Source: Candidatus Woesearchaeota archaeon | GTDB taxonomy: Archaea; Nanobdellota; Nanobdellia; Woesearchaeales; UBA11576 | DNA length: 64,000 nucleotides | Direction: 5' to 3' | Assembly: GCA_018675335.1 (NCBI GenBank) | Contig: JABGYH010000009.1 | Span: 62,001 to 126,000, forward strand | In this document: positions 3,394-58,435 of the stretch, one piece after another | How the letters are laid out: each line of letters begins with the position of its first letter | How positions within the stretch are numbered: the stretch's first letter is position 1 | Made by a program: the position numbers and the translations under genes | Notes under the pieces: model-generated | Seen by the model: the letters and a program-made list of their open reading frames with translations, nothing else | What the model was told of the DNA's origin: nothing | Database searches by the model: none

Positions 3394-3521
3394 TGTTCAC
3401 ACCAAGAATCTAAAAGAGGTGACATTTTTTTAAAACTTTTATTTCATAACTCTTTTTTTATTTTTTCTTATATTCTATCCGGATTAAGTTTATATGCACC
3501 TTATGACTAAGAAAACTAATT

Positions 3522-35890: not shown

Positions 35891-35910
35891 AAAATCCAAT
35901 AAACTCTACT

Positions 35911-37395: not shown

Positions 37396-38340
37396 CTAAT
37401 AAGTCAATGCTCCTTGTGCAAGACTAATTACAAAAAATGCAGTAGTCATCATAATCAAACTATGTTTTAATCCGGCTTTTACTTCTCCTTCAGATAATTT
37501 ACCCAAAACCATCCCTGCGAATAATCCTTGAATCAATGATAACATCAGAAAAACACCACGTATACTTACAAACCAGCGAGCCATTGTTCCAAAAAATGTA
37601 CCGACATCACTAAATTTAATATCAACTTTTTCAGTAACAGCAGAAAGTTCCGATCCGCCCATAGCGCCGCCTCCCTCAATCTCACTACTACCCATTCCTT
37701 CTATATCATTCACATCAGCAGATGACATATTTACGATATAAGGAATTAATAAGTTTTGAATTACAACTAGTACTGCGACAAACACAACAAAAATAATATA
37801 ACTTTGAACTATTTGTCCATGAATGGATGCTTTTCTTTTTTCTTTAATTTTTTTAATTGCAATTACTGAATCTGTTACTTGAGTTAATACATCTTCAATA
37901 TTTCCACCACTAGTTTCCGCTTCAATAACTGTGGATATTGCACGACGTATAATATTATTTTTTGTTTCTCTAGAAAAATTATTCAATGCTTTATGAACAG
38001 GTATTGCCCATTCTACTTGATTTGCTAACTTAACAACATAAGGAGTTAATGATCCATAATCCATTTTTGAAACATAAATTATTGCTTTGGAAATTGGCAT
38101 TCCACTCTTTACACTTCCAACCAAATTTCGTACAAATTCAGGAAACTGTGCTTCTATTTCTTTTTGTTCTTTTCTAAATGCAAAAAAATCTACCCAAAAC
38201 TGACTCCAAGCAATTGATGCTGAAACAATTATTAAAGGAATAAACCAAAGTGTTGACTTAAATTGTATAAAATCTACAACTAACACAGCTACACCTAATA
38301 AAATTGCCAAAATATGTCTTAGTTCGAATCGTAAATGCAT
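37396..38340 (-). CDS. T2SSF/TadC-type pilus membrane protein, 314 aa
   Basis: Residues about 65-215 form a T2SSF domain: EFVRNLVGSVKSGMPISKAI (the gap between conserved helices), SGGNIEDVLTQV, then membrane helices near 185-205, 255-275 and 290-310, plus two at the start (about 8-50). T2SSF proteins are the membrane platforms of type II secretion, type IV pili and archaella. It is the second and shorter of two such proteins in this locus. A Gly/Ser/Glu-rich loop (about 220-240) is unusual. Last gene of the pilus locus. Confidence 0.8.
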   Translation of the reverse strand: MHLRFELRHILAILLGVAVLVVDFIQFKSTLWFIPLIIVSASIAWSQFWVDFFAFRKEQKEIEAQFPEFVRNLVGSVKSGMPISKAIIYVSKMDYGSLTPYVVKLANQVEWAIPVHKALNNFSRETKNNIIRRAISTVIEAETSGGNIEDVLTQVTDSVIAIKKIKEKRKASIHGQIVQSYIIFVVFVAVLVVIQNLLIPYIVNMSSADVNDIEGMGSSEIEGGGAMGGSELSAVTEKVDIKFSDVGTFFGTMARWFVSIRGVFLMLSLIQGLFAGMVLGKLSEGEVKAGLKHSLIMMTTAFFVISLAQGALTY

Positions 38341-38550
38341 TTTAACCTTTTATATTTATTAGTTTAAATTATATTAATAATTATTTTCTTTAATTATGTT
38401 TATATTTATTTTCTTAAATCATATTATTATTTATTTTCTTTAATTATGATAACAATTCATATTGATATTTATAATCATATTGGAAAAAATTAATCAATTC
38501 GCAAATATAATTAAATAAATAATTTCTAAATTTAATTAGCTAATTGCAAT

Positions 38551-40608
38551 TTAACTATCTGGTTGCGACATGGATAAAAACATTATAAATAAAACATTCA
38601 AAATAGGTATGACAATATATGTTCCGACTACAATTACAACTTCTACATCAACACCGCCTACTTGCCCACCAAGCATTCCAACTAAAGATAATGCAGCTAC
38701 AAAAAATAGCGGTGCAGCAATTAGTAGTCCAGTGTAAATATCGGAAAATGTAGCTATTGTTTCAGTATATTTTTCACGTTCTAATTTATATTTATCCATT
38801 AACTCATTACTTTTTTGAGTTAAAAAATCTTTAATATCTCCTCCACTTTGAATAGTAGATACAATTCCATCAAAAAATTCTCTAAAATCATCAGACGGGG
38901 TTGTCGCGGAAACTGTTCTTAATGCAGTAATAAAATCATACCCAAATACTTCTACATAATTTACAATTTTTTCAATTTCAACACTTATCTCACCATATTC
39001 TTTACTTTTTGCTATAAGTTTAAACATTTTTGTTGGTGGAACTCCTGATGAAGCAACTGAAGACATATGATTTACTGCAAACGGTAAATTTGAATTAATG
39101 CTTGCTCGACGCGTTGAAATAATACTTGGAGGATATTGCCAAAAACCAACTGCTGTAACTACCATAGCAATTAATGTAAAAGCAAATGTTCTTGCAGCAA
39201 CCATTTTAAATGGCAAACCTGATACTCCAAAAAATACTGAAAAAAATCCTAAACCTAAAATTCCTGAAAAGATTACAAAAAATACCATTAAATTTACATA
39301 CGTATTAGATAAAATTTTCAAATTAGCCAATCGAATATTGTTATATAGTGTTTTAAAAAGATCAGGGAATGTTTCAAGTAACCACAAACTCAATCGTTTA
39401 ATAGTTACATTTGCTAATTGACCCCAAATAGATGGCTTATATATGGCATAGGATTTTCTTGATTCAAGTATTGCTCTTATTCGTTTTGCTTCTTTTTGAA
39501 GCATTGTAGCAGTAATATGTTCTACTTGATCACTCACTTTCACATGAGTTTTACGCCGTACTCGTTCAAGTTCCAACGTTGATAGAGGAACATTTTTTTT
39601 AATTTTTGAAATATATTCATCTTTTTTTGATTTAAACAATTTCTCTTTAATAAATGCCCATCCGAAAAAAGTTCCCAATACATCGTTAAATGATTCTTCT
39701 TCTTTTTTAATCAAAGAGGTTTTTTTATCAGCAGATTTATCTTTTTTAGAATCAAGTTTAACTCCTTCAATCGCAGATTTTCCTCTAAAAATTCCTAAAA
39801 TTTTATCCCACAATGTTTGTTTGTGAGTTTTTGAAACATCTTTTTTACGAGATTTAACTCCTTCCTTTTTAGAGATGGAGTCTAATTTTCTTCGTTTAAA
39901 ACCCAATAAATTCAATAATTGCCTAAATATAGAAAACTGCTCAACATTCAATTGATGTTTTGCAGAACTTACTTGTTTATTTTCTTTAACGCCTGCTTCT
40001 TTTTCTTTAATCGAAATTATCGGACTTGATTTTTTCTTAGACGATGACTTGACAGCAGATCCAGGTACAAATATTTTTTTCAAAAACAAAATTAGTTTTT
40101 TAAATAATGTTGGTTTTACTTCAACAACTGCAGAAATATCATTTTGAGACATAGATTCATCACTATCTTGCATTGATACTCCATGAATTTTTCTTTTAAC
40201 TAATGGTTTTTGTAACGGTGGAACTGGTGCAAGTACAGAATCTAATTTTTTTGATTTTATTTTAGGAATGACTTCAACAGAATCAGGTTCAACTTTCATT
40301 CCAAATTTAATTTTTGAATAATTATGATCATTATATGTTTCATAAAATACTTGAGTGTTTAATGCTTCTATTTTGTTTAATAAATCATAAATATAACTAT
40401 TGTAATATTTTATCCAGTCTTTTTTCGTTTTTCCTTTTAATAATTTCTCACTTAATTTTTCATATTCAAAGTACTTTAAATGTCCTTTTTGATATTTAGA
40501 AAATAGTTTTTCAAGTTCTAATAAAAAATTATTTTTTTGATACTCGTAAGTATTTATTTCATCTACAAAATCACTTATTTTCTTCAAAAGTATTTTAATA
40601 TTATTCAT
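38551..40608 (-). CDS. T2SSF/FlaJ-type pilus membrane protein with long cytoplasmic N-terminus, 685 aa
   Basis: Residues 1-400 are soluble, helical and very rich in Lys and Ser (including many SKK clusters). Membrane helices follow near 435-455 and 468-490. The T2SSF core (about 505-610) holds NSNLPFAVNHMSSVASSGVPPTKMF and STIQSGGDIKDFL, with final helices near 625-650 and 660-680. FlaJ-type platforms in archaea have two T2SSF modules; here one module is in this protein and a second in the 314-aa protein, so the two may form a split platform. It follows a small coiled-coil gene by 16 bases and shares the secretion ATPase. Confidence 0.8.
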   Translation of the reverse strand: MNNIKILLKKISDFVDEINTYEYQKNNFLLELEKLFSKYQKGHLKYFEYEKLSEKLLKGKTKKDWIKYYNSYIYDLLNKIEALNTQVFYETYNDHNYSKIKFGMKVEPDSVEVIPKIKSKKLDSVLAPVPPLQKPLVKRKIHGVSMQDSDESMSQNDISAVVEVKPTLFKKLILFLKKIFVPGSAVKSSSKKKSSPIISIKEKEAGVKENKQVSSAKHQLNVEQFSIFRQLLNLLGFKRRKLDSISKKEGVKSRKKDVSKTHKQTLWDKILGIFRGKSAIEGVKLDSKKDKSADKKTSLIKKEEESFNDVLGTFFGWAFIKEKLFKSKKDEYISKIKKNVPLSTLELERVRRKTHVKVSDQVEHITATMLQKEAKRIRAILESRKSYAIYKPSIWGQLANVTIKRLSLWLLETFPDLFKTLYNNIRLANLKILSNTYVNLMVFFVIFSGILGLGFFSVFFGVSGLPFKMVAARTFAFTLIAMVVTAVGFWQYPPSIISTRRASINSNLPFAVNHMSSVASSGVPPTKMFKLIAKSKEYGEISVEIEKIVNYVEVFGYDFITALRTVSATTPSDDFREFFDGIVSTIQSGGDIKDFLTQKSNELMDKYKLEREKYTETIATFSDIYTGLLIAAPLFFVAALSLVGMLGGQVGGVDVEVVIVVGTYIVIPILNVLFIMFLSMSQPDS

Positions 40609-40624
40609 TTTAAATCAAAAAAAA

Positions 40625-40861
40625 CTAAATTTTTTCTTTTTTTTCTAATCCCGATAAAATTTCTTTATTAGCGAGGGATATTTTAAGTATTCTATCCCTA
40701 ATATATTTAGCTTCTTCTCGCTTTGCTTTTGCTTCAGTTTCACTTCTAGGTTTTGAGTAAACATCTTCTGAATATAATTCAAATAAAGTATTTATCTCTT
40801 CAATATTCTTTTTCACGATTTGTAATTGTTGAGAAATTTTCATTTTACGTATTTTCCCCAT
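40625..40861 (-). CDS. Small charged coiled-coil protein in the pilus locus, 78 aa
   Basis: No family recognised. It is Lys/Glu-rich with a helical start (MKISQQLQIVKKNIEEINTL) and an internal SKPRSE... segment. It lies between the secretion ATPase and the 685-aa platform, with only 16 bases to the next gene, so it is likely co-transcribed. A role as linker of ATPase and platform is possible but unproven. Confidence 0.6.
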   Translation of the reverse strand: MGKIRKMKISQQLQIVKKNIEEINTLFELYSEDVYSKPRSETEAKAKREEAKYIRDRILKISLANKEILSGLEKKEKI

Positions 40862-40947
40862 AAAACATAATCAAACAAAAAATTATATTCATTAAAAACA
40901 GATAATCTTGCTCGAAAATAATGATGTTAGTTCATACTAATTATTAT

Positions 40948-43002
40948 TTATTTAATTATTCCAAATTGTTTTAATACCATTTTAGGATTTTTGTAGTAAT
41001 TATTGATAACTTTACTAAATGAATGAAAGTTTGATAAATTTCTATCAGCCATTGTTTTCAAAAGTAATGATCGTTTCTTTAATTCCATTTCAAGTTCTTT
41101 ATCAGTAAGTCCAGTAACTTGAGTTATTTTTTTAAAAACTACTGAGTTATGATTATAATTTATTACATCTTTTACAGAATCCCAAACAAAAAGAGGATTA
41201 TATTTTGCAGCACCTAAATTTCCTTCTACTGTTTCTATTTCATCAAGTTCTTTCATTCGTCTAAAATTTCTTGTAGGTGTTTTAACATGAGCACACACAA
41301 TAACTAGATCTAAACTTTCAACAAGAGACGGAGATAAATTAATAGGAGGAGTTTCAAGTCTCTTAACTAAAGTTGGTACTGACGCTGCGTGGAAAGTTGC
41401 AAAACTTGGATGTCCAGAGGCCATTCCTTGAAATAAAACATATGTTTCTTCACCACGAACTTCTCCTACAATTACATAATCAGGAGCTTGCCTAAATGTT
41501 TCTCTTAACAAATCAAAAAGAGTTATTTCCCCTACTTGTTGACCTAAAACATTAGGTATCCCAAACCCACTCCTTGTTACTGCAGGTAACCAATTTATAT
41601 GAGGTAAATTCAATTCTCGAGTATCTTCAATAGAACATATTCTTGCTTCAGGAGGAATAAATGTAGCAATTGCATTTAAAAAAGTAGTTTTTCCTGATGC
41701 TGTTTCTCCAATAGTCATTACATTAAATTTGTTTTCAATTGCCATCCATGTAAACGCTAATGCTTCAGGGCTCGTTGTTTTAAATTGAATTAAATGAACT
41801 GGCGTCCACGGCTCTTTAGTAAATTTCCTAATAGTAAATGTCGGTCCTCTAGTTGTTATATCTTCAGTATAAGTTGCATTTACCCTTGATCCATCAGGTA
41901 ATGTCCCATCAAGCAAAGGTTTTGCATAAGAAATATAACGACCACTTCGTTGAGCAAGTTTTTCTACAAAATCAGTTAAATAACTTGATGAATTAAATAT
42001 AACTGTGGTTTTTAAATTTTGATATTTTCTATGAACAATGTACAGTGGAAAATGAAGGCCATTACATTCAATATCTTCAACATAATAATCATTTAGTAAA
42101 GGTTCCATTTCATTAAAACCAACGCTATTTCTATAAACATAATACATTATTTTTTTATATGTATCAATAGAAATTTTAGCACCTAACTCAATTAGAATAC
42201 TTTGAACATTTTGTTCTAAATATTTAACAAGTAAATTTGTCTTTGCAGCTTTAACATAACTAATATTAATAATTTCTTCAAGTCCAAGAATAATTAATTC
42301 TAGTAATTCCTTTTCTGCTTTATCAAGTACTGGTTCTTCTACTTCATAAATTAATTCATTTTCTTTTTTATCCCAATAAATATGAATAAATGCAAATGGA
42401 GGTAAAACTGGATATCTCACATTAATTGCTGCAGGATTATCAAAAGGAGGTAATTTAATTAATCTGGGTCGAAGATCAATATAGAATGTATCTGTTTTAA
42501 TTTCAGTTAAATCAGTTTCAATTTCAGCATCATCTGCGGAATCATCTGAAGAGTTACTTTCAGCTTTTTTAATTGGTTTAACAATTTCATATGCTTTTTT
42601 TGTTTGTGCAGCAAGTTCTGTTGAAGAAAGATTCTTATTATCATCAGATCCTTGTTCTATTTTAACATCTTCAGGCTCCTTACTTAAACTTTCTTGCATC
42701 ATTTCAGATTCAGAATTTTCTTGAGTTGATTCTTGAGTTAAATTAGCAGGATTAACATCGGCAGTACTACCAAGATTCCCTATGGGCTTATTAAGTGAAG
42801 CTTCAGTTTGTTTTAAAGTAGGTTTTGGAATTTGTTCGGGAGCGCCATTCACTGCTTCAGAATTTACATTTTCTTGATTAGCAGGCAAAACATTTTCTTG
42901 ACTGCCTGAAACTACAGGTCCTTGCTCAGTTGGAACTACCTTTCCTTGACTAGCTTGATCAACAACTTTTTCTTTTTGTTTTTTCCATAAATGAAAGTCC
43001 AT
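40948..43002 (-). CDS. Type II/IV secretion (FlaI/TadA/PilT-type) ATPase with disordered N-terminus, 684 aa
   Basis: Residues 1-150 are low-complexity (Gln, Asn, Glu, Ser, Pro), likely disordered. The core (about 180-640) is a VirB11-family ATPase: Walker A GETASGKTTFLNAI, Asp box SIEDTRELNLP, Walker B DYVIVGEVRGEE, and the His box GHPSFATFHA. These power pilus or archaellum assembly and are hexameric. The N-terminal extension is not in usual FlaI proteins. It is upstream of both T2SSF proteins on the same strand, and of a row of pilin-like genes, so it is the locus motor. Confidence 0.9.
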   Translation of the reverse strand: MDFHLWKKQKEKVVDQASQGKVVPTEQGPVVSGSQENVLPANQENVNSEAVNGAPEQIPKPTLKQTEASLNKPIGNLGSTADVNPANLTQESTQENSESEMMQESLSKEPEDVKIEQGSDDNKNLSSTELAAQTKKAYEIVKPIKKAESNSSDDSADDAEIETDLTEIKTDTFYIDLRPRLIKLPPFDNPAAINVRYPVLPPFAFIHIYWDKKENELIYEVEEPVLDKAEKELLELIILGLEEIINISYVKAAKTNLLVKYLEQNVQSILIELGAKISIDTYKKIMYYVYRNSVGFNEMEPLLNDYYVEDIECNGLHFPLYIVHRKYQNLKTTVIFNSSSYLTDFVEKLAQRSGRYISYAKPLLDGTLPDGSRVNATYTEDITTRGPTFTIRKFTKEPWTPVHLIQFKTTSPEALAFTWMAIENKFNVMTIGETASGKTTFLNAIATFIPPEARICSIEDTRELNLPHINWLPAVTRSGFGIPNVLGQQVGEITLFDLLRETFRQAPDYVIVGEVRGEETYVLFQGMASGHPSFATFHAASVPTLVKRLETPPINLSPSLVESLDLVIVCAHVKTPTRNFRRMKELDEIETVEGNLGAAKYNPLFVWDSVKDVINYNHNSVVFKKITQVTGLTDKELEMELKKRSLLLKTMADRNLSNFHSFSKVINNYYKNPKMVLKQFGIIK

Positions 43003-43090
43003 ATTTATCGTCTCAATATAATTTTAAAAAAATTATTTTTAAACTTTTAATGTTAATAATTTTCAATAATAATAATAATGCATATCATAA

Positions 43091-43810
43091 TTATCTAATT
43101 TTTGCTTGAATAAAATCACGATTACTTTCTAAATTAAACTCAATTATGGTATATGCAACTTCATCAGTATTATTAATAAAATATAATACGGTTGCACTCC
43201 CCATATTTACGCCAGAATCTTCAAGTTTTGAAAAACCAGTATAATTCCAGCTTCCTTCTGAAAGACCAATATCAAAACCACCAATTTCGGTAAATTCAGT
43301 ATTGGAATCAACATTTGTGAACGTAATATTTTTAATAAGATCTGTAGAATTTAATATACAAGTTCCACGATCTTCACATTTAATTAAATAAATTGTTAAA
43401 AATTTATTTTGCAATAAATATGAATCAGTTAATTCTACTGCAGTAACATCTGAGTTTGCAGTAATTTTTAAATCACCCAAATCAACTTCAGACCCTGTTT
43501 CTACAATTCGCGCTTCAGTTAACATATCCCAAGTAAGAGCTCCTTCTTCAACTCGCAAATTTCCTTTTTCAATTTCTAAAGGAACTACTCGTTGTGACCC
43601 GGCACCTTCTTGACTTACATCTTTAATATGTTCGTTTACTGCTAAAAAAAGATTTTTTGTTCGAGTAAATGAGGTTTTATCTTGTAATTTTTCAATTACA
43701 GGAGTTCCAGCTCTTATAACAATGGTCATCACAACTGTGATTATCAAAATATACAAAATTGCAGAAATCCATATCTGTCCTCTTTTCCTCCTATTTTTGA
43801 AAAATTTCAT
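43091..43810 (-). CDS. Pilin-like protein with class III signal peptide, 239 aa
   Basis: The N-terminus is short and basic (MKFFKNRRKRG), followed by QIWISAILYILIITVVMTIVIRAG: a hydrophobic stretch beginning right after Gly, as in archaeal prepilins cut after a basic-Gly pair. The remaining about 200 residues are beta-rich and polar, with two cysteines (ECDRG-like CEDRGTC). It sits just before the secretion ATPase. Its sequence differs from the other pilins here, so it may be a minor pilin. Confidence 0.7.
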   Translation of the reverse strand: MKFFKNRRKRGQIWISAILYILIITVVMTIVIRAGTPVIEKLQDKTSFTRTKNLFLAVNEHIKDVSQEGAGSQRVVPLEIEKGNLRVEEGALTWDMLTEARIVETGSEVDLGDLKITANSDVTAVELTDSYLLQNKFLTIYLIKCEDRGTCILNSTDLIKNITFTNVDSNTEFTEIGGFDIGLSEGSWNYTGFSKLEDSGVNMGSATVLYFINNTDEVAYTIIEFNLESNRDFIQAKIR

Positions 43811-43852
43811 CGTATGATTAAAAAATAATTATAATAATTTAATTTTAAATAA

Positions 43853-44269
43853 TTAAGATATTTTGAATTTTTTTGAATTATGTTTTTTACAACCTTCAGG
43901 ATAAAATTCAACTACTCCACTTACGGACACATTAGTTAATTCAAGTTCTCTTTTTTCCCCATGTCCAATCCCTGCAATAAATTCTTTATGATAATAATCT
44001 CCAGATTCAATTATCAAATATTCAATACTATCACCTGCTGAATTTTCTAATACAAAAAATAATTTATCTTCATCCAAATCCAACTCGGAAATTTTATATG
44101 AATAACTTCCACAATTCATAACTGATTCAGTTCCTTCTGTTGAAAATGCAATTGATGAACTATATGTTTTATAAATATATGAACCTAAAAAAATTGCGAG
44201 TACTATGAACAAAGTTATTAAAAACATCATTAAACTATATTTTTTACTTCTAGACTCTGCCATTATCAT
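43853..44269 (-). CDS. Single-pass membrane protein in the pilus locus, 138 aa
   Basis: The N-terminus has a basic stretch, then a membrane helix (MMFLITLFIVLAIFLGSYIY, about 14-33), then about 100 polar beta-rich residues with two Cys (MNCGS and EGCKK). The basic-Gly pilin signal is not present, so it is not clearly a pilin. The start may be the first or third Met; GTGA lies just ahead. It is likely an accessory factor of the locus. Confidence 0.65.
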   Translation of the reverse strand: MIMAESRSKKYSLMMFLITLFIVLAIFLGSYIYKTYSSSIAFSTEGTESVMNCGSYSYKISELDLDEDKLFFVLENSAGDSIEYLIIESGDYYHKEFIAGIGHGEKRELELTNVSVSGVVEFYPEGCKKHNSKKFKIS

Positions 44270-44326
44270 GTCACTTCTATATTATCAAAATTAAAAAAAG
44301 ATGAAAAAAAATTTAAAATTATAGCT

Positions 44327-44869: not shown

Positions 44870-44879
44870 TTCTGTCACC

Positions 44880-45182
44880 TCATTGCCTCATCATGATGTC
44901 AATTAACTTATTTAATCTTGACTCTTCTGAATGCATTGTTTTGATATATGGAACTGCACCAACGATCAGTACTGCTAATCCCATTACAATAAGAACATTT
45001 AATAATGTTCTAGAAATATAGCCGTTGATAAAACCTAATACTGCAACAAACATAAAACAAAAATAAAGTATTAAACTTTTGTTCATTACAAGCATTGACT
45101 TTTCTCTATTTAAACGGCTTTTTTCTACTTCCAACTCCACAACTTCTCGCGGAATTTTCTTACCTCTTTTTTTAGTTGCCAT
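44880..45182 (-). CDS. Small two-TM protein of the pilus locus, 100 aa
   Basis: The first 30 residues are basic and helical (charged KK/RE stretches), then two membrane helices (about 37-57 and 60-80), then a short charged tail. GGAGGT precedes ATG 45182, one of the strongest ribosome binding sites in the locus. No family is recognised. A membrane partner of the pilins is likely. Confidence 0.65.
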   Translation of the reverse strand: MATKKRGKKIPREVVELEVEKSRLNREKSMLVMNKSLILYFCFMFVAVLGFINGYISRTLLNVLIVMGLAVLIVGAVPYIKTMHSEESRLNKLIDIMMRQ

Positions 45183-45204
45183 TTGTTTACCTCCTTTTCA
45201 GGGT

Positions 45205-45774
45205 TTAAGTATTGCAATCTTCAATAATTGTTGAGCTTGCTTTTCTATCAGCGCAAATTATTGTAAAATCTTCACGCTTAACTATTGGAATCACTTCAAC
45301 CATTCCCAATTCTTGTGTTATTCCTGTTACTTCTATTTGTTTGGTCCGATCAGGATTCAAACTTATTTCCGTGCTGTTTGTGCTTAATGGTTTCTTGTCA
45401 GCGTCATAAATTCTATAATCTATCAAATCTATCCTTCTATAGTTCCTATTTTGAATCTGTATATTTAAAACTTGCGTTGTTAGGTTCTGACAAACGCTTT
45501 CGACGCTTAAACTTACTTGTCTGCACTCGTCAGTATTAAAAACTGTTTTTTTTATTTCATTTGTAGATTCAGTTGTATGATCGACCATAAAACTATACAT
45601 AAATGCACTTAATGCAACTGCAAACGCCATGACAAGTACCCACGAAATAAATGGTCCTGCTGCTTTTTTATTTATCAAAAAACTAAATCCAAAACTATTT
45701 TTACCATAAACTTTAGATCTGTTTAAACTTTTTTTCAAAACCATTTTTTCATTTTTATTATTATTAAATTTCAT
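45205..45774 (-). CDS. Pilin-like protein, 189 aa
   Basis: An unusually long Lys/Asn-rich N-terminus (about 1-36) precedes NKKAAGPFISWVLVMAFAVALSAFMYSFMV, where cleavage after AAG would give the typical pilin N-terminus (PFISWVLV). The mature domain is polar, with three to four Cys. A downstream start (the Met at about residue 11) is possible. Its start overlaps the end of the previous gene by 11 bases, indicating coupling. Confidence 0.7.
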   Translation of the reverse strand: MKFNNNKNEKMVLKKSLNRSKVYGKNSFGFSFLINKKAAGPFISWVLVMAFAVALSAFMYSFMVDHTTESTNEIKKTVFNTDECRQVSLSVESVCQNLTTQVLNIQIQNRNYRRIDLIDYRIYDADKKPLSTNSTEISLNPDRTKQIEVTGITQELGMVEVIPIVKREDFTIICADRKASSTIIEDCNT

Positions 45775-46315
45775 TTTTAAAAATTCGAATGTTATCTCCT
45801 CGTTTGGATTTCATTAAATAAGCTAATTGATGTGGTTCATCAGTTATATCAAAAACATACTGAACAGGATTATTTTCATCATCATAAAATAACACACTGA
45901 CTTTTTCTTCAACAGCATTATTTGTAGTTAACAATTCTTCACTACGATTTAAGGTTTGATTTAATTCAACAATTACAATTTGATTAAACATCTCATTCAC
46001 TATAAATCGTTCATCCCCATTAACAAGAACATAAAACAATTCAATTTGCAAACCATTCAATCTCGAAAAATCACGAAAACTAGTTTCAAAAGATTTAAAT
46101 TCAGAAGTTAAATTTTCGCCACTCACCAAAGCATGATTAATTACAACAGGCGTTTCTATTTCAAAATTTGATTTTAATTTTGTGAATGTTTCTCGAGTTT
46201 GTTTTATTCCTGAATTTGGTTTAAGTATAAGCATTGCTAACACTATTAATAGCACTGCAGTAAAAAGATAATATTGTGCTTTTTTATTTTTTAAAAAGTG
46301 TTTTATACATACCAT
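45764..46315 (-). CDS. Pilin-like or single-pass protein, 183 aa
   Basis: Basic start (MVCIKHFLKNKKA) then QYYLFTAVLLIVLAMLIL, fitting a pilin cleavage after KKA. The rest is polar and helical with one N-glycosylation-like site. The start is placed at ATG 46315 because GATGTGA just ahead is the likely ribosome binding site; the GTG inside it was not used. It follows the giant protein gene by 31 bases. The pilin family is not certain. Confidence 0.65.
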   Translation of the reverse strand: MVCIKHFLKNKKAQYYLFTAVLLIVLAMLILKPNSGIKQTRETFTKLKSNFEIETPVVINHALVSGENLTSEFKSFETSFRDFSRLNGLQIELFYVLVNGDERFIVNEMFNQIVIVELNQTLNRSEELLTTNNAVEEKVSVLFYDDENNPVQYVFDITDEPHQLAYLMKSKRGDNIRIFKNEI

Positions 46316-46346
46316 AAATAAATTCACATCATTTTCAATAAATAAA

Positions 46347-49300: not shown

Positions 49301-52300
49301 TGATGCCTTGTTGAGTAAAACTTTCAGTTCCATCATTCTCCCACCAAACAACCGAATCATTTTGATAAGCAACGCCCAAAACATCAATATCCCCATCACC
49401 ATCTAAGTCTCCAAAATTAACATCTCTTGCGTAATCAAATGACCCATTTATTATAAATTGCGTAAAATTAATAGCACCTTGTAATGCTTCAAAATTATCA
49501 TTTGCAAATCTACATTGATTGATCCCATTACTATCCGAATAATCAAGTTGCAGCATTACATTTGGAGATCCAGTTATTGTACTGCTCCCATTTTCTCCAG
49601 TAATAGATATGCTTCCAGTTGGATTTGTATTATCAAGAGTAACAGTTACAGGATTTGATTGGAAGGTATTTCCTTTATTATCATTAACATTTGCTCTAAA
49701 TGTTTGTTCTAAATTATTTGCATTCATAACTAATATTTCTTTTTCATATATTCCATCATGATCAAAATCATTTAATGTATAAGTATAATTTCTTAATGGG
49801 TTTCCATCAAAAGTTACAGTATAACCAACTGCTCCTGCATCATAACTAAATGTAATCAAATCTCCTGTTTTTACAATTGATTTATCAACACTAAAATCTC
49901 CAACAGGAACTGGCGCTACAACTCCACAAATATTTGCAAATGAATAAGGTGAATAGTATGTGTTTCCACCATATTCTATTCGTCCAGAAATTAATACACT
50001 ATCTTCGGAAACTCCTGCATATAGACTAAATCCATCACAAAAAATACTATTTCTAATAAATGAATATTCTAAATATGAATTTGTTACATTTGAATTTTCA
50101 ACTCGACTATCAATTATAGTTGTTGGATCAATAAAACTATTGTTAATTACAGAATTATAAATAATTGAATCTTCAATTATTGAATCTTCAATCACACAAG
50201 GAGTATCATAATCACCAACATATTTTAAGGTCGAATTCGTTATATTACTATTTGTTACAGTGCAATTGATAATTGTTGAATCTTGAATATTTGAACTTAA
50301 ACCAATCAATGCAGTCACATTAGAATTATTTAAAATTGAATTGGTTAAATTAACAAATAATAAATTTGATAAAACAATTGTCGAATCAACAATTAACGCA
50401 TCATTTTCAATCAAAGAATATTGAATTAAACTATCCTTAATAATGGAAACATCCCTAATAACAGAATTATTAACATCTGAATTATTAATTATGGATCCAA
50501 TATTTTCAATTGTTGAATTCCACCAAGAAGTATTTTGAATGTAATGATTCCAAACAACATTTATTTGTTCAGACAAAGTAGGAATTTCTCTATTACCCGC
50601 ATAATCTTCAGAATAATAATTTATCGCCCATTGACGAGTACTATTCACAACACCAAAAACAGTAACTTCAGTTGTTAGATTTGTTTGTTCGATCAAATTA
50701 GTATTATTATCTCCAAATTCAGTATCACAAGCAGAATCATAAATACTGTAATTACAGTAATAAGTATAATGAACCCCGCTCAATGTATCTGTTGCATTCA
50801 ATAAAATTTCAGGATCATCATCCATATACCAATATCTTGAAGGAACATATGGACTAGTATCAGATATGTTATCAGTAGTTGTTGGTCCTTGAGTATCAAT
50901 TATAAATTGAAAATCATGAATATCATGAGTTCCATTAATTGTTGCAAATAAATCCAAAGGAACAATTTTCAAATCATAACTCCCCTCATCAAAACTAGAA
51001 GTATCCATAGTATAATTTAAATCAGCAGTAGTTCCATCTAAATTCCAAACATCAGTAACATTACTCCAATAAACATAATAATTTATTGAATAAATACCTG
51101 ATTGTTTTGTCCAATTCAAGTCAACACTACTTGAATGATATTGTGTAGCCCCAGGAATAGTAATATTTAATGGACCACAATCACTCGCAGACAAACCTGT
51201 CGAAGAATTAAAATCTTCATAATAAAAATTTCCTTCATTTTCTCCAGTTCCCGAATCTAATACACAAAACTCATTTGCGGCAGTCGTTCCATTTTCTTTA
51301 ACCGCATACAATCCAGAATAGAAATGGTTCAACCAAACATTAGAGTTATTAAAACTATCAAATATGATACTTTGATTTGATGCATAAATTTTATTTCTAG
51401 AAATATTAAAATTTTCTCCATTAAATAAATATAATCCATCAGTAATATTTTGAAATGAATTATTACTTATTTGATTAAAATCTGAAATATTATAACTGTA
51501 TACTCCAAACAAAAAATCAGAAAAATCATTACTCAAAAATGAATTATTTTCAAAAGATTCATTCATATCCATCAAAAATAAACCATAAAGCGAAGGATTA
51601 CGTCCTGAAATATTATTATATTCAAAACTATTATTACTAGAACAACCCGCAAGAAAAATACCATATCGAGTTATATTATACAAATGATTACCATAAATTG
51701 AATTATTTCTAGCACCCATAAAACCAATACCTGCTTGAACAAAACTAATATTATTATCATAAATAACTAAATTAGAAACCAACTCCCCAAATTCACTACA
51801 ATTAGTAACTATATTAATAATTCCAGTACTTCCAGTACCCGTTCCTTCTAAATTATTATTAGATATGTTTCCGCCATCAATTGAATATAATAAAATAGCT
51901 TGATCTGAAAAATTTGAAAGATTATTTCCATAAATAATCGGATTAATTGCATTTGAAATACTTATTGATGAATCAACATCAAACAAATTATTAGAAATAT
52001 TAACATTAAGTGCATCCTCAAATATTATAGGATCAGAACTCCAATGATCACCTTGAATAGTAACTGACGAACTATTATTAAAAACATTATTTGTTATGAT
52101 CTGATCCGACCCTTCTGCATAAATTGCCCAAGAACTTGCATTCATAATCACATTATTTTCAATTCTTAAATCAGTTATGTTATCAAAATTCAAAGGAGAA
52201 TCATAATTTTGAAATGTGCAAGACTTAACATGAATTCCTTCTATATCATCTTGATCAATCACGGAATCTGTTGATCCATTAGTATCAAAAATAGTATTGT

Positions 52301-55300
52301 TACAATAAAGACTGGTGTTTCCAGTTGTTAAATTTAAAACCCCTCCAAAAAGATAGTTATTAAAATTATATGTTCCAGGACAAAAAATCAAACTATAATT
52401 AATTGATAAATTCTCAACAGGAGTAGTACAAGAATCTATATAATAATTATTAGGATAATTATCTAAAGAACTACCAAATGATAAACTAGAATCACAAACT
52501 AAATTATTATTAGTATCTAAGCATCCTTCTCGAGGACTATCATAATCTGAATAAAAATTACCTTGATTTGACAAATTAAAATTATTATTTACACCCAAAT
52601 TTCTTATTGTTTCAGAATTATTTACAAAATTATTATTCCAAACTAAATTATTATCTGACCCGACTGCCATCATTAATGCATAATTATCAAAATCTGAAAA
52701 TAAACTATCTGAAACATTATTATAGTCTGAACTAACAACAAAATTAACTCCTGCATTAAGATTATCTAAAAAAGTTAAATTAAATAATTTATTATTATCA
52801 GAAGAGGCAATATAAACTGAACCATCATTTGAGACATCTTGATTTAATCGAAATGTAAGATTACTAAAAATAGAATTATCAGTTCCACTTAAATAAATCG
52901 CATCATCCGAATTAAACTCAAATATTGAATCATATATTTCTAAATAATGTGAACTAGATGTAGTAACACCATAAAGAGCGGAATCATTTATCCATAATTG
53001 TTCTAATTTAGAAAATGGAGTATTTATCAAATAAACCCCCTTTTGATAATTAGTTAAATTACAATTTTTTATATGAATTCCTTCTAAATTATTTAAATAA
53101 AATCCGTTTCCAACACCCGCACCAGTAAAAACAGTATCATTACAATAAACACTCAGATTGCTTTGTAAAAAATCAACAACACCTGAAGATGAGTCAGTGG
53201 TTATAGGATAAGTATCATTACATAAAATAACACTGTATTCTATATTGGGACTAGTATCTGGATTTTTACAATCTCCAACATAATAATTAGAAGGTAAATA
53301 ATCAGTTAAGCTACCAAAAACTCTAACAGAATCACAAACTAAGTTATTATTGTTGTCAATACATCCTTCTCTTAGACTATCATAATCTGAATAAAAATTA
53401 CCTTGATTTGAATCATTAAGTACAACATTACTCCCCAATATAGGTGTGGAAATATTAATAAAATTATTTCCTAATACAACTGAATCCGCAGAATCATCAA
53501 AAACAATTCCAAAAACCCCATTTTTAACTAAATTATGAGAAAATAAAGTATTAGGTGATTGGTGTAATCTAATCATCTGAGAATCTGCAGCGCCCAAAAT
53601 AATTGAATTAATAATTGAATTATTAAAAGAATTTAGGGAAGAATAATATGCATTTCCATAAGTAGTATTAACAATAGTAATTGAATCAAAAACATTAAAT
53701 GAAGCCGAACTTAACTCAATTCCCGTTCCATAATTTTGCATAGTCAAATTTTTTATTTGAATTCCTTCCAAACCAGAATTTAAAAAAATTGCAGAATCAT
53801 CCTCAACTTCTCCATCACCATTCAAAATAGAATTATTACCATAAACACTTACGTTGCCAACTTTAAAATCAAATATACCCCAAACAGTACTATCAATATT
53901 ATAAGTATTAGCACACAATATAACACTATAATAAATATCTAAACTATCAACAACAGGAGTACAATCACCAATATAATATTTAGATGGAGTTGGATCATCT
54001 CCATAAGAATAGCCATCATACTCATCATCACAAATTAAATCATCATCTAAATCATCACACCCTTCTCGAATACTATCATAATCACTATAAAAATTACCCA
54101 AGTCAGACAAATTATAATTATTGCTTCCTGAAAGTTTTTGGCCAATTTGATAAGAGCCAGGATTGTTATCAATAAAGTTATTCGCCCAGATAGAGTTACC
54201 ACTTGAACCATCCCAAATTATGAAACCATAACTGCCGTGATTAACAATTAAATTTTGGGACAAATTATTATTTTCAGAATCTCCTGTAAAAAAAATACCA
54301 TATACTTCCCCATCTCTCACTTCATTACTTAAAATTTGAGAGTTGGAAGTATTTTCGAAATAAATAGGATAACTGCTAGAATTAATTATGAAATTATCCA
54401 CCATATTAAGATAATTGGAATTAGTTGAATAAAATGCAGAATAATAATTATCAAAAGAACACCCCTTAATTTGCACCCCAGTTAACTCATAAAAACGAAT
54501 TCCTCTAGAATTAGGTGTGTCATCACTAATAAACCGAGTATCATTACAATACACACTCACATTACTAACTTGAAAATCAACAACTCCTGTTGAACTAGTT
54601 GTATTTATGTTATAGGTATCATTACACAAAATAACACTATACTCAATTGCTAAATCTTCAACCGGCACAGTACAATCACCAATATAATAATTAGAAGGCA
54701 AATAATCTACCGACCCAGAAAAGGTTATTTCAGAATCACAAATTAAATTATTATCTGAATCATAACATCCTTCTCGAGGACTATCATAAAAAGAATAAAA
54801 ATTACCTTGATTCGATGAGTTAAACGATAATGCTTCATCTAAAGAACCAAAAATAGAGCTAGAATTACTAATAAAATTATTTCCATAAATTAAACTATTA
54901 GTACTAGTACCCCCAAAAGATATTGCTTTCTCATAAAATGTGTTATTAATAACATTTAAGTTATTTACTCCCCCCACTATACTCAAACTATAAATCCCTA
55001 AATCACCAACTAAAGTGTTATTTGTTATAATAACATTATCCGAACCTAAACTTATCCCGCCATTTGAATTATTAAAAATAAAATTATTTTCTACTAAAGC
55101 AAACGGTCCAACACCATCTACCCCATAAACAGAATTATTCCAAATAGTATTATTTATCAAATGAAAATAATAATCATAAATTGACGTTCGCACACCTCTT
55201 GAAAATCCAGAAATATTACAATTAGCTAAGGTAGTATAATTATAATCCCCCATAAGAGTAATATACAAATTAACACCCAGATATGATCCTGATAAACCTT

Positions 55301-57302
55301 TAATCGAATAACCACCACAGTCAATAGTTGCTTCATTTGCCCCAAAATTTAGTCCATTATCAGAACAATAAGTCCCACCAGTATAATTAACTAAATCTTG
55401 ATCTAATGTTAAATTACCAATTACATCCACAGCACACACAGGATATATTGTTTCTGCACTATATTGTCTTGTTAAATTAGCACAATTACTCGAATAACCA
55501 CTAACACCAAGACCATAATAATTACCATAAAATTCATTTGAAGTATTAAACCTATAGTTAGAATGTTTAGAAATCATCGGCCCACAATAGTCTTGAGTAT
55601 TTGCACCATTAACTATTCCTCCTGAACTTAAAATATTATTTAAATAAATATCAGTTATAGCACCATTAGGAGTTACCAAAATATCTTTATTGTTATTGTT
55701 TAAATTATTCCCATTAATAGTTGCATTAGTATTTCCTGAGTGTAATTTAATACCTGATGATTCAAGTTCACCAGCACAATAAGTGATTGTATTATCATAA
55801 ATATCTACAATTGCAGGATCATTAAAAAAAATCCCATAATTAGAATTATTAATAAAATTGTAATAAATTTTTGTTCCCGCAATATCACCACTCGGCCAAT
55901 TAAATGCGATTGCTTGATTAAAATTCTTTAAAGTACAACCCAATATTGAAACATCATCTGCAGATGAATTATCAACTTGAATTCCAGTATCGGATTTAAT
56001 TCCAATAATAACAGTACCATCACAAATTAAATCAACATTTGCAGCACTAATTGAAATATAAGGATTAGACCCCCCACTCAAATTGTACTCTCCAGGACAT
56101 AATAAAGTATCTTCAGTTATTACCATTCCCGCATATGGTATAGTACAACCACCCCTAGTCCAACCAAATGTTCTTGAAAATAAGTTCAAACCATCACTAT
56201 TAAGATCATCTAATTCAGACATACCAAAAAAAGAATATCTAACATTAACTGTTTCATTAGTTCTAACTGCCAATACTGAACTTGAAGGCGAACCATATTT
56301 ATCAATTAAACTTTGAGCACCAATTAAAAAATCAGATTTGTACAAATAATTAAGATGAGTGGTAACATCTGCAATTTGAGTATTTACTTCTGCATATTCA
56401 GAAGTAATAATATGAGAATTATTATAAATATCTACATCATCTTTATTAAGAAATTGTTCTGTTGATGTACTATCAACCAATCCTTTAAATCCCGCTTCAA
56501 CTAAAAGTACCGGAATTAAATCTGTTCTTAATTTACTACCTGGATCAGATCCCAAACTACCAACACTTTCAGAAACAATTGCAACATCATAATTTAAATA
56601 ATCAGTAGTTGATATGTTTGAATCATCAATATAAATTACGTCATATCCCCATCCAGTCAATTTATCATAAAATGGAACATCATAACTAGCATCAGGACTT
56701 GAGGGATTACCAACAACCAGCCCAACTCTTAAAGCTTCATTTAATTTTCTCGTTACAATATGTTGATTAACAACTTCTCCACCAACTATTGGATTTGATG
56801 GTAAAAAATCTGCCTCAGTCATAGAATCAATTTGTCGACCAAAAGAAGTCCTTCCAGTATAACTTGAAACAGAACTTATTAAACCTGGCGAGGCAGTATC
56901 AAAATAAACCATAAATGCGTATTGATTTCCGTTAAACAAAGGAACATTTAATTTACCGCTTGAAACTTCATTAGATGCACCAATTGAAACACCAAATAAT
57001 TCTCTTTCAAATATATTTGTCCAAGTTCCACTATCATTTTTCCAAATAACAAATTTTAAATCAACATCACCATCAAGATCTAATCCTTCTTGTACAAAAT
57101 ATGATAAAATAACTGTTTCATCCATATCGTAAATATTACCTATTCCTTCTTGTGCGAAAGTATCAACTTCATCCAAAAACCCTGGCCCAACTAAATCTTC
57201 ATAATAACCAAAAACATTAGAACTCATAACTACTAAAACTATTAAAACGAGTAAACTTAAAATTCCTCTTTTCAATTTCATTGCACTTGTTGTTTTAGCC
57301 AT
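46347..57302 (-). CDS. Giant secreted multidomain surface protein (adhesin-like), 3651 aa
   Basis: Signal peptide about 1-33 (KRGILSLLVLIVLVVM core). Domains: a glutamine-amidotransferase-like part (about 175-370; RVGLVVGNPSSPDASYDVP); NosD-type right-handed beta-helix array (about 385-2050) with four repeats of a module marked NFYSDYDS-x-REGC and a Ca-binding-like D-x-N-N-N-x-V-C-D loop (about 835, 1070, 1304, 1580); an Asn/Ser/Ile strand-turn array (about 2255-2435); an Ig-like domain (about 2560-3000) that contains a seven-unit FG-GAP/VCBS block (about 2610-2955); an Fn3-like domain (about 3005-3118); beta-rich C-terminus. No sorting signal or C-terminal helix. The start overlaps the ATPase gene by 25 bases. 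Probable pilus-linked adhesin or contact protein. Confidence 0.85.
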   Translation of the reverse strand: MAKTTSAMKLKRGILSLLVLIVLVVMSSNVFGYYEDLVGPGFLDEVDTFAQEGIGNIYDMDETVILSYFVQEGLDLDGDVDLKFVIWKNDSGTWTNIFERELFGVSIGASNEVSSGKLNVPLFNGNQYAFMVYFDTASPGLISSVSSYTGRTSFGRQIDSMTEADFLPSNPIVGGEVVNQHIVTRKLNEALRVGLVVGNPSSPDASYDVPFYDKLTGWGYDVIYIDDSNISTTDYLNYDVAIVSESVGSLGSDPGSKLRTDLIPVLLVEAGFKGLVDSTSTEQFLNKDDVDIYNNSHIITSEYAEVNTQIADVTTHLNYLYKSDFLIGAQSLIDKYGSPSSSVLAVRTNETVNVRYSFFGMSELDDLNSDGLNLFSRTFGWTRGGCTIPYAGMVITEDTLLCPGEYNLSGGSNPYISISAANVDLICDGTVIIGIKSDTGIQVDNSSADDVSILGCTLKNFNQAIAFNWPSGDIAGTKIYYNFINNSNYGIFFNDPAIVDIYDNTITYCAGELESSGIKLHSGNTNATINGNNLNNNNKDILVTPNGAITDIYLNNILSSGGIVNGANTQDYCGPMISKHSNYRFNTSNEFYGNYYGLGVSGYSSNCANLTRQYSAETIYPVCAVDVIGNLTLDQDLVNYTGGTYCSDNGLNFGANEATIDCGGYSIKGLSGSYLGVNLYITLMGDYNYTTLANCNISGFSRGVRTSIYDYYFHLINNTIWNNSVYGVDGVGPFALVENNFIFNNSNGGISLGSDNVIITNNTLVGDLGIYSLSIVGGVNNLNVINNTFYEKAISFGGTSTNSLIYGNNFISNSSSIFGSLDEALSFNSSNQGNFYSFYDSPREGCYDSDNNLICDSEITFSGSVDYLPSNYYIGDCTVPVEDLAIEYSVILCNDTYNINTTSSTGVVDFQVSNVSVYCNDTRFISDDTPNSRGIRFYELTGVQIKGCSFDNYYSAFYSTNSNYLNMVDNFIINSSSYPIYFENTSNSQILSNEVRDGEVYGIFFTGDSENNNLSQNLIVNHGSYGFIIWDGSSGNSIWANNFIDNNPGSYQIGQKLSGSNNYNLSDLGNFYSDYDSIREGCDDLDDDLICDDEYDGYSYGDDPTPSKYYIGDCTPVVDSLDIYYSVILCANTYNIDSTVWGIFDFKVGNVSVYGNNSILNGDGEVEDDSAIFLNSGLEGIQIKNLTMQNYGTGIELSSASFNVFDSITIVNTTYGNAYYSSLNSFNNSIINSIILGAADSQMIRLHQSPNTLFSHNLVKNGVFGIVFDDSADSVVLGNNFINISTPILGSNVVLNDSNQGNFYSDYDSLREGCIDNNNNLVCDSVRVFGSLTDYLPSNYYVGDCKNPDTSPNIEYSVILCNDTYPITTDSSSGVVDFLQSNLSVYCNDTVFTGAGVGNGFYLNNLEGIHIKNCNLTNYQKGVYLINTPFSKLEQLWINDSALYGVTTSSSHYLEIYDSIFEFNSDDAIYLSGTDNSIFSNLTFRLNQDVSNDGSVYIASSDNNKLFNLTFLDNLNAGVNFVVSSDYNNVSDSLFSDFDNYALMMAVGSDNNLVWNNNFVNNSETIRNLGVNNNFNLSNQGNFYSDYDSPREGCLDTNNNLVCDSSLSFGSSLDNYPNNYYIDSCTTPVENLSINYSLIFCPGTYNFNNYLFGGVLNLTTGNTSLYCNNTIFDTNGSTDSVIDQDDIEGIHVKSCTFQNYDSPLNFDNITDLRIENNVIMNASSWAIYAEGSDQIITNNVFNNSSSVTIQGDHWSSDPIIFEDALNVNISNNLFDVDSSISISNAINPIIYGNNLSNFSDQAILLYSIDGGNISNNNLEGTGTGSTGIINIVTNCSEFGELVSNLVIYDNNISFVQAGIGFMGARNNSIYGNHLYNITRYGIFLAGCSSNNSFEYNNISGRNPSLYGLFLMDMNESFENNSFLSNDFSDFLFGVYSYNISDFNQISNNSFQNITDGLYLFNGENFNISRNKIYASNQSIIFDSFNNSNVWLNHFYSGLYAVKENGTTAANEFCVLDSGTGENEGNFYYEDFNSSTGLSASDCGPLNITIPGATQYHSSSVDLNWTKQSGIYSINYYVYWSNVTDVWNLDGTTADLNYTMDTSSFDEGSYDLKIVPLDLFATINGTHDIHDFQFIIDTQGPTTTDNISDTSPYVPSRYWYMDDDPEILLNATDTLSGVHYTYYCNYSIYDSACDTEFGDNNTNLIEQTNLTTEVTVFGVVNSTRQWAINYYSEDYAGNREIPTLSEQINVVWNHYIQNTSWWNSTIENIGSIINNSDVNNSVIRDVSIIKDSLIQYSLIENDALIVDSTIVLSNLLFVNLTNSILNNSNVTALIGLSSNIQDSTIINCTVTNSNITNSTLKYVGDYDTPCVIEDSIIEDSIIYNSVINNSFIDPTTIIDSRVENSNVTNSYLEYSFIRNSIFCDGFSLYAGVSEDSVLISGRIEYGGNTYYSPYSFANICGVVAPVPVGDFSVDKSIVKTGDLITFSYDAGAVGYTVTFDGNPLRNYTYTLNDFDHDGIYEKEILVMNANNLEQTFRANVNDNKGNTFQSNPVTVTLDNTNPTGSISITGENGSSTITGSPNVMLQLDYSDSNGINQCRFANDNFEALQGAINFTQFIINGSFDYARDVNFGDLDGDGDIDVLGVAYQNDSVVWWENDGTESFTQQGINESFDGAEYIEIVDLDGDGDIDVLGSAAGVNDIVWWKNDGVGNFVQHMINDSFSSAAGIVDSVDLDGDGDIDIIGNAVNGDDIVWWENDGDENFVQHIINNSFELFQIFEFELVDLDDDTDYDIIGAVASEDLVVWWENDGDENFVSHTINDSFISASAVNAVDLDFDGDLDILGTAGMSDDVVWWENDGSESFTQHDIDTNFNGAKDIESIDLDSDGDLDFFAVAIDDGVAWWENDGNQNFTKHVINSSFNGSFALALVDLDENGYVDILSAAMRDDDIAWWAHNLIAGSEWQECVSEKAWTLSSGFDTEKTVFYQVKDNAGNIETYNATIEYRLIQDYTPPTSVPTVYDGLSGEDIDWVNSNTTLSAHWTNSFDEISETYYRYRLYENGSLWLEFNNGNYTSVGINTSVTVTGLNLTEGFEYKFEVEAYNPYNLSALAAISDGQVVDITNPNSTIIESMTHPDNETSYNNNNPIFNFTAVDINNSGVPSIQSGILGYSYVLDQKPGTAPDDFLEQRYEEELQEMNSNGNSFMLKEDSDVETTQFYSQLLDNFTQNQSLKIKIKLFEEVEDLREDVLVQAYVVRFDDYDADLDEFNDSDYTIISNVVLLERDIAYSDSSDDADIYSVDLMFNETVSNETYDIFLVISGVVGDENTNNISIGTTTKPSDINQNTKLFYVNQTDDSLVDLTQDYELAIEIKKVDMGNEWEVSYENLADGTYYFHVKTQDNAGNWGNVSHYQFNVDTIGIPVSIISPTSGQSFLSDLIDVVVEVDSSSNVSIISEMENGSVYVSANQSVTSTATFENILLSEGTNELYAISYDENNVSATSVRIFVVSESLTGVVTNKTLNITFPCTGISGSDTHLNYCGPSTYKLGVASEEDSSISLNRIVADTSEHSIKIFMTKPDFDAGSVEDQLDDDEFLDVVSPAFGFRREPGEYLLRTDLRYIDLVLSGDKKVGTGSYKLVIRNNGLTSDGRPNVTIQIT
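48430..49480 (-). repeat. Seven FG-GAP/VCBS repeats (predicted propeller) in the giant gene
   Basis: Seven units of about 48-50 residues each carry the pattern VDLDGDGDIDVLG (Ca-binding D-x-D-x-D) then VVWWENDG and F(T/V)(Q/K)H-x-I-(N/D)-x-(S/N)-F. Seven units would close one beta propeller. The flanking sequence is one Ig-like domain: QCRFANDN on one side and SEWQECVSEKAW on the other. Confidence 0.8.
52400..54840 (-). repeat. Four repeats of an NFYSDYDS-REGC beta-helix module in the giant gene
   Basis: Near-identical segments start at about 54830, 54110, 53430 and 52590 on the minus strand. Each carries NFYS(D/F)YDS, REGC, a D-x-(D/N)-N-(N/D)-L-(I/V)-CD loop, then S(N/K)YY(I/V)GDC (a variant NNYYIDSC in the last), (I/D)EYSVILC, and a later VSVYCND(T/N). 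Spacing is 700-850 bases, so each module is one beta-helix block plus a linker. Confidence 0.8.
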
Positions 57303-58435
57303 TGTTTAAATATGTTATCTTCTATTTCAAATTTGCCACGTTCTTCATTCACAATTATTTCTTTCTCCTCAAGGATTGATAAAAAACGTCGAACATTAGT
57401 TTGTGAATAATTTAGTTCTTTACTTATAGCAGAGGGAGTGTTAAGATCATGTTTTACCATGCAAACTAAAATCATTCTTTCTTTATTGCTTAACCGATTT
57501 AATTTCTCTCTAAATATAATAGTGCATTCTTCTTCTAAAAATTCATCAAACACTAAATTAAACTTATCTAAGTTTAAATCACCAACGCAATTTAATTTAC
57601 GACCTAAAAATTGAAGATAAAACGGAACTCCCTGAGTTACTAAATGAATTTTTTGATATACCTCATCACTCAACTTCATCCCAAGATTTTTCTCAACAAG
57701 TTTTTGTCCAGTTTCTAAATCAAATGGTTTTACACTCATAACAAAAAAAACATCAGAAAATAGCGAAGAATCATCAATAATTAATTTTTGTGCAATAACT
57801 AAATTAGATAAAGTAATATTTAATAAAGTATTTTCATATCCTGCATGACTTTCTTTTAATATTTTTAAAATATCTTCAGAATCAAAACCATTTTTTAATT
57901 TTAATATATCCCCAAACTCATCAAAAAATAATAAACAGCTAGTATCCGTTTCTTTTGCTAATTGATCCGGCAAATCAAATAACGATTTAAACAAAGAATT
58001 CATATCCACTTCTTTTTCTCTTTCAAAAGTTAATAATAATTTTACAGAATCAAGAAGTTCTCCATCAAGATTCATTCCCCTAAGTAATGTATCAAGTATT
58101 CCTAATGGTGCTTGATATAATTCATCAATGTTAATAGTAAGTCCTAATATTTGTTTATATGATTCAAGAATTGTTTTTGATAATTTTCTAATAAAATTAT
58201 GTTGTGAATTATCTGTTAAGCAATCAAGTGAAAAATATATTTTTACAATTTCTTTTTCTGGGGTTAACTTATGTATTGCTTGTTTTACTAATGAGGTTTT
58301 TCCAAGGTTTTTACTCCCAATTATTGCAAAGCCTTTTTGAGAACTAGGATTTTTTAGTGTAGCAACTAATTCTAATACTTGTTTATCTCTACCCACAAAC
58401 TGTGTACCACTTACTGGACGCAGTGTAAAACCCAC
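57278..58435 (-). CDS. AAA/STAND-type ATPase with C-terminal winged helix, 385 aa
   Basis: An archaeal AAA-like ATPase: Walker A AIIGSKNLGKTSLVK (about 37-51), Walker B CLLFFDEFGDIL (about 166-177), then a helical lid, and a C-terminal winged helix (about 305-385) including LNRLSNKERMILVCMVKHDLNT. Such proteins act as regulators or signal-dependent switches. GTG 58433-58435 is the start, with AGAGGT ahead. Its stop lies inside the giant gene's signal peptide (25-base overlap), so they are co-translated. It may regulate or assemble the locus. Confidence 0.75.
   Translation of the reverse strand: MGFTLRPVSGTQFVGRDKQVLELVATLKNPSSQKGFAIIGSKNLGKTSLVKQAIHKLTPEKEIVKIYFSLDCLTDNSQHNFIRKLSKTILESYKQILGLTINIDELYQAPLGILDTLLRGMNLDGELLDSVKLLLTFEREKEVDMNSLFKSLFDLPDQLAKETDTSCLLFFDEFGDILKLKNGFDSEDILKILKESHAGYENTLLNITLSNLVIAQKLIIDDSSLFSDVFFVMSVKPFDLETGQKLVEKNLGMKLSDEVYQKIHLVTQGVPFYLQFLGRKLNCVGDLNLDKFNLVFDEFLEEECTIIFREKLNRLSNKERMILVCMVKHDLNTPSAISKELNYSQTNVRRFLSILEEKEIIVNEERGKFEIEDNIFKQWLKQQVQ

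Follow-up and report, generated by a model that had tools for sequence, protein, structure and literature searches.

Twelve open reading frames (ORFs) on the minus strand occupy positions 37396 to 58435 of the window, by which we mean the whole 64,000-nucleotide stretch of DNA that was analyzed. The host assembly is that of a Woesearchaeota-type DPANN archaeon (1.7 Mb, 97% complete). The first-pass annotation claimed a pilus/giant-adhesin locus in one strand, and the ATPase, platform, pilins, and 3651-amino-acid secreted protein were all confirmed among the twelve ORFs, which run in the order ATPreg, GIANT, A, B, c, P, d, D, E, s, F1, F2. They encode the ATPase of a type IV filament, a platform divided between two genes, four pilin-like proteins of class III, the giant protein, and accessory proteins:

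57278..58435, minus strand: ATPreg, 385 aa, ATPase_2/AAA plus winged-helix domains (Pfam); genus-specific, not core
46347..57302, minus strand: GIANT, 3651 aa, Sec-type secreted multidomain protein with syntenic homologues in relatives
52539..54608, minus strand: beta-helix part of the giant (aa 899-1588), its best right-handed NosD/Beta_helix stretches
48438..49415, minus strand: FG-GAP part of the giant (aa ~2630-2955), DLDGDGDID motifs, probable beta-propeller
46770..48437, minus strand: fn3/Big_13 Ig-like part of the giant (aa ~2956-3511), partly conserved in relatives
46350..46769, minus strand: conserved tail domain (CTD) of the giant, ~140 aa, ending GxYxLxIxNxG; candidate pilus-docking domain
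45764..46327, minus strand: A (g187), pilin-like, with a class III-like N-terminus (KKAQYY), helices, and a beta domain
45205..45774, minus strand: B (g189), pilin-like, class III-like N-terminus (KKA...FISWVL); conserved
44880..45182, minus strand: c (g100), small protein with two membrane helices
44327..44878, minus strand: P (g183), major-pilin candidate, KKGVSPLIATVLLIAFAVALGAVVMNW; TIGR02537
43853..44269, minus strand: d (g138), single-TM protein without a canonical class III site
43091..43810, minus strand: D (g239), minor-pilin candidate, N-terminus KRGQIWISAILY
40948..43002, minus strand: E, assembly ATPase of the type IV filament (T2SSE family)
40625..40861, minus strand: s (g78), small soluble protein in the E-F1 interval
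38551..40608, minus strand: F1, platform protein, N-half of ArlJ plus a ~430-aa Lys-rich N-terminal extension
37396..38340, minus strand: F2, platform protein, C-half of ArlJ

From ATPreg to P, successive intergenic gaps are -25, 19, -11, 22, and 1 nt; beyond P they measure 57, 42, 88, 86, and 16 nt as far as F1, and F1 and F2 are 210 nt apart. A single message for the twelve-gene run is possible. Divergent HIT-domain genes lie upstream and an NFACT RNA-binding gene lies downstream (58715-59691 and 35072-35899 of the window, respectively), and such genes flank the pilus system in several other families too. Adjoining the locus, at 36115-36783, is a gene for an adenylate/guanylate cyclase domain (PF00211, 63 bits) whose product has a hydrophobic C-terminal segment, which is unexpected for a DPANN archaeon.

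The motor protein E matches PF00437 (T2SSE) at 102 bits (cut-off, 24.9). Its closest relative in the PDB is the type II secretion ATPase 2OAP (358 bits, versus 264 bits for FlaI), which we take to be Archaeoglobus GspE. Both F1 and F2 pass PF00482 (67.7 and 59.9 bits; cut-off, 25.2), F1 aligning with the first half of ArlJ/FlaJ and F2 with the second half. Because they match two halves of one ArlJ, F1 and F2 are considered a split TadB/TadC-like platform. The earlier designation of two T2SSF platform proteins is corrected accordingly, and the idea of two independent platform proteins was rejected. The Lys-rich N-terminal extension of F1 (~430 aa), with conserved ends and a variable middle, is unusual in platform proteins.

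The genome has no T2SSF genes besides F1 and F2, and E is the sole T4P-like ATPase with adjoining platform genes. Of the two other ATPase matches in the genome, one is of the PRK13764/PINA type, and the genes neighboring the other (771 aa) include no platform or pilin homologue. Accordingly, no pilus machine other than this locus was detected in the genome. In several family f38 genomes (L052, 10589-13558; L102, L103, and L104) the pilus ATPase has an intein-like insert in its catalytic region that ends VYDLSVP...ENFLS..GIILHN, before SGHPS.

P passes the archaellin/pilin N-terminal model TIGR02537 (28.2; cut-off, 20), and A, B, and D have KK(G/A)-type class III-like N-termini that are conserved in relatives. 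The four proteins with such N-termini are g183, g187, g189, and g239; g138 is without the canonical site. Two A24 prepilin peptidases, over the PF01478 cut-off, are encoded away from the locus. The genome thus contains the components by which a type IV filament (archaeal T4P) is recognized: a T2SSE/VirB11-family ATPase, a T2SSF platform, a class III pilin, and a prepilin peptidase.

The giant has a single N-terminal hydrophobic signal (aa 6-35), and a search of its 3651 residues for a C-terminal membrane anchor found none. Its Pfam matches are to NosD/Beta_helix (122 and 86 bits) and FG-GAP_3 (83 bits), and the same search found no PilY1 and no DUF2341 domain. The beta-helix region contains repeated GNFYSDYDS...REGC units. 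When the giant was compared by BLAST with the large upstream ORFs of relatives, the N-terminal parts diverged and the extreme C-terminus was common. N-terminal architectures include beta-helix plus FG-GAP (the window and G001), a Kelch propeller (G106), laminin-G (G013 and G024), and beta-helix plus DUF7402 (G019). Between two members of the genus (G000 and G001), identity is 83% for the ATPase, 48% over half its length for the giant, and 48% for A. The beta-helix is one among several interchangeable architectures at the N-terminus. Fast-changing display modules on a conserved C-terminal module are the pattern expected of a tethered adhesin.

An orthologue of the ATPase (E <= 1e-120) was found in 65 of the 353 genomes of the order, and the pilus system is therefore patchy in its distribution. 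One gene order recurs across the order; a reading of about 60 loci yielded large secreted gene(s)-A-B-(c)-P-(d)-D-E-(s)-F1-F2, the large upstream gene(s) encoding CTD giant(s). ATPreg was found in only two genomes, both of the genus (G000 and G001), and most of its ATPase_2/AAA and winged-helix scores are below curated cut-offs. A role for the winged-helix ATPase as a core regulator was rejected because the gene is confined to the genus. In the ATPase tree, the Woesearchaeal clade falls within a larger DPANN clade that also includes sequences from Pacearchaeota, Nanohaloarchaea, Aenigmatarchaeota, and Nanobdella.

We designated the last ~140 residues of the giant as the CTD. An alignment of this domain from 24 proteins has four invariant residues (G, F, G, and G). 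Searches of the CTD against Pfam, NCBIfam, and PDB profiles gave no convincing match, nor any PilY1 match; three weak Pfam matches, none of them shared by a second member, resemble noise. Its predicted model is weak (mean pLDDT, 67). In the open-license literature we came across neither a CTD-like domain nor a giant-pilin pairing, and the candidate docking domain is apparently previously unreported.

The CTD and the pilus ATPase tend to occur together. The host genome has exactly one, and among 59 relatives 14 have both CTD and ATPase, 7 the ATPase only, 2 the CTD only, and 36 neither (Fisher P = 8e-7, a value that overstates independence because the genomes are related; the spread of the CTD-A pair over 20 families, described below, is the sturdier measure). 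In the ATPase-positive genomes without a CTD, contigs mostly stop at or before the giant. In a sample of the phylum, all strong CTD matches fell within the order (34 genomes); five weak ones came from other parts of the class. CTD proteins range from about 500 to 6000 aa and number one to three at each locus; in some cases they are encoded away from it, and at some loci two or three are in tandem. G013 (L040/L054) has a 2246-aa second CTD protein between A and B, besides a 4168-aa one upstream of A. G024 has an orphan CTD protein that is not followed by A. A Nanohaloarchaea pilus locus (L158, 15022-15555) encodes, beside three pilins, a 177-aa protein that comprises a CTD-like domain and its own signal peptide (43 bits, E = 2e-15 in a one-sequence search). 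This stand-alone protein suggests that the CTD is a pilus component beyond this order.

In nearly all loci, A adjoins the gene for the CTD protein. In A an invariant Q and Y follow the KK(G/A) motif, as is typical of a class III site. The predicted model is confident (pLDDT, 90) and shows a membrane helix at the N-terminus, a stalk of helices, and a beta domain. A fold search of the PDB with this model returned nothing significant (best E, 0.12), and comparison of A with the PDB and family profiles gave no convincing match. Because there is no significant structural match, the designation of A as a putative pilin rests on its sequence and context.

A CTD protein is encoded directly 5' of A, or within two ORFs of it, on the same strand in 41 of the 43 genomes that have A and readable upstream sequence, and these represent 20 families. 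In 15 genomes the CTD gene overlaps A by exactly 4 nt, which suggests translational coupling. The CTD-A-pilin cassette remains intact in G054, G107, and G288, whose motor genes are elsewhere, and G002 keeps the CTD-A pair with no ATPase orthologue found. The two exceptions are G248, in which A is present and the CTD is not nearby, and G291 (L235, 1523-19624), in which the CTD protein, of 6033 aa, is encoded 19 kb upstream of A. The 19-kb interval in G291 contains many fragmentary ORFs and ATPase-like genes and is perhaps a degraded insertion. The CTD and A are thus genetically coupled. It had been proposed that the single-system reading would fail if relatives carried the pilus and giant genes apart; this refutation does not hold, the pair staying together even where the motor was elsewhere. 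The giant and pilin genes are one unit, and the single-system reading largely stands, but the genus-only winged-helix ATPase is not part of it.

In several loci (L047, L079, L084, L090, L097, and others; f36 and f59), a divergent CTD lies beside A, and A is often ~12 residues shorter at its end. The short end of A could reflect co-evolution, but it tracks family lines, so it was not counted as evidence.

In type IV pili, the ATPase and platform extrude the major pilin, and minor pilins prime assembly. The probable explanation for the locus is a type IV pilus that displays a PilY1-like giant adhesin, docked via the CTD to the minor pilin A. The ATPase E and split platform F1/F2 would polymerize pilin P, the pilin-like proteins A, B, and D would prime P assembly, and a prepilin peptidase from elsewhere in the genome would process the pilins. 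The giant would leave via Sec to become a pilus-displayed adhesin. We infer that it docks physically, its CTD on A, probably at the tip, and that it is adhesive, with its variable N-terminal modules pointing outward to bind a surface or partner cell as its target. For the more general proposal, we see about an even chance that the CTD is a dedicated docking domain that loads interchangeable giants on one conserved pilus via its cognate pilin A, a modular device for host or surface recognition that would be analogous to PilY1 and unrelated to it in sequence. The host-contact role previously suggested for the locus is plausible as a putative function.

The CTD-A pair bears on how DPANN archaea contact hosts or surfaces because it offers a concrete handle: it predicts which protein bears the adhesin, by which domain this adhesin is retained, and what part selects the target. 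These predictions are open to tests with recombinant domains, without culture of the archaeon. In uncultured genomes, a CTD profile could pick out the adhesin candidate for each pilus.

Other explanations for the giant were considered. It could be a cell-surface or S-layer-associated protein that shares its regulation with the pilus without ever belonging to it, with the CTD anchoring it in the envelope. A Sec-type signal, the lack of a membrane anchor, and a beta-rich multidomain structure like that of archaeal surface proteins would fit, as would the orphan CTD protein in G024, and S-layer-like proteins have been listed in T4P loci (Makarova et al. 2016, PMC4858521). This possibility is considered unlikely: the CTD is nearly limited to pilus-ATPase genomes, where it adjoins A, rather than occurring in surface proteins at large, and the host genome has just the one. 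Somewhat less likely still is that the system is a T2SS-like secretion piston in which an A-tipped pseudopilus pushes the giant out and the CTD is a secretion signal. The kinship of T2SS and T4P is known, the giant has a Sec-type signal, and contact between a tip minor pilin and substrate would follow GspK-like logic (PMC7541494). However, g183 bears an archaellin/major-pilin N-terminus. Furthermore, archaea of this type are taken to have no outer membrane, and Sec export should therefore suffice for the giant.

NosD/Beta_helix folds occur in polysaccharide-active enzymes, and laminin-G-like domains can bind sugars. The giant might be a surface-displayed enzyme akin to beta-helix polysaccharide lyases, serving to break down polymers rather than to adhere. 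This is very unlikely because no catalytic family was matched, and the N-terminal folds vary by genome with no common enzyme domain. Finally, a divergent archaellum for swimming, which has a homologous ATPase and platform, was rejected as very improbable, because although E reaches 397 bits on the FlaI model and the platform halves match ArlJ, that score is below the 550-bit cut-off, E is nearer 2OAP, the platform is split, and the search for ArlH gave two weak KaiC-family matches elsewhere in the genome (30.5 and 27.8 bits), neither of them convincing.

The favored interpretation, a pilus displaying a giant adhesin held through the CTD and A, can be compared with three known systems. Hamm et al. 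2024 (PMC11291902) describe a pair of T4P loci, encoding coiled-coil proteins, whose conservation extends over cluster-2 DPANN and takes in Woesearchaeota. As in the system described here, these are pilus ATPase/TadC loci of cluster-2 DPANN with extra candidate attachment proteins. The Woesearchaeal ATPase clade nests with those of Nanohaloarchaea, Pacearchaeota, and Aenigmatarchaeota, and the Nanohaloarchaea locus L158 has a CTD-like protein; the nested DPANN ATPases presumably belong to the published loci. The proteins in that report are coiled-coil and sigma-1-like, in contrast to the giant beta-rich protein with a CTD coupled to A, of which its main text makes no mention.

The euryarchaeal clade 1 (Epd-type) pili of Makarova et al. 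2016 (PMC4858521) have DUF2341 PilY-like tip-adhesin candidates and two TadC genes. They share with the present locus two TadC-like platform genes (F1 and F2 here), large secreted PilY-like candidates, and five or more minor pilins (PMC4858521). They differ in that the giant is without DUF2341 and has a different C-terminal domain, its relatives reach ~6000 aa, and the ATPase is probably of another lineage, a placement made without direct comparison with clade 1. These DUF2341 candidates (PMC4858521), together with the coiled-coil proteins of the DPANN report cited above (PMC11291902), indicate that the first-pass statement that pilus loci do not usually include such a giant was too strong.

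The third system is the tip complex that PilY1 forms with minor pilins in bacterial T4aP. In Myxococcus PilY1, the N-terminus varies and the C-terminal domain, at the pilus-proximal end, is conserved (PMC7541494). The giant likewise has a Sec-type signal, a variable N-terminus, a conserved C-terminus, and a minor-pilin linkage, but it belongs to an archaeal machine, is far larger, and has no PilY1 beta-propeller or vWA domain that we could find. Earlier work had thus already reported that archaeal pilus loci can encode large adhesins and that DPANN pilus loci are conserved, and the tie of the CTD to one pilin-like partner is the addition made here.
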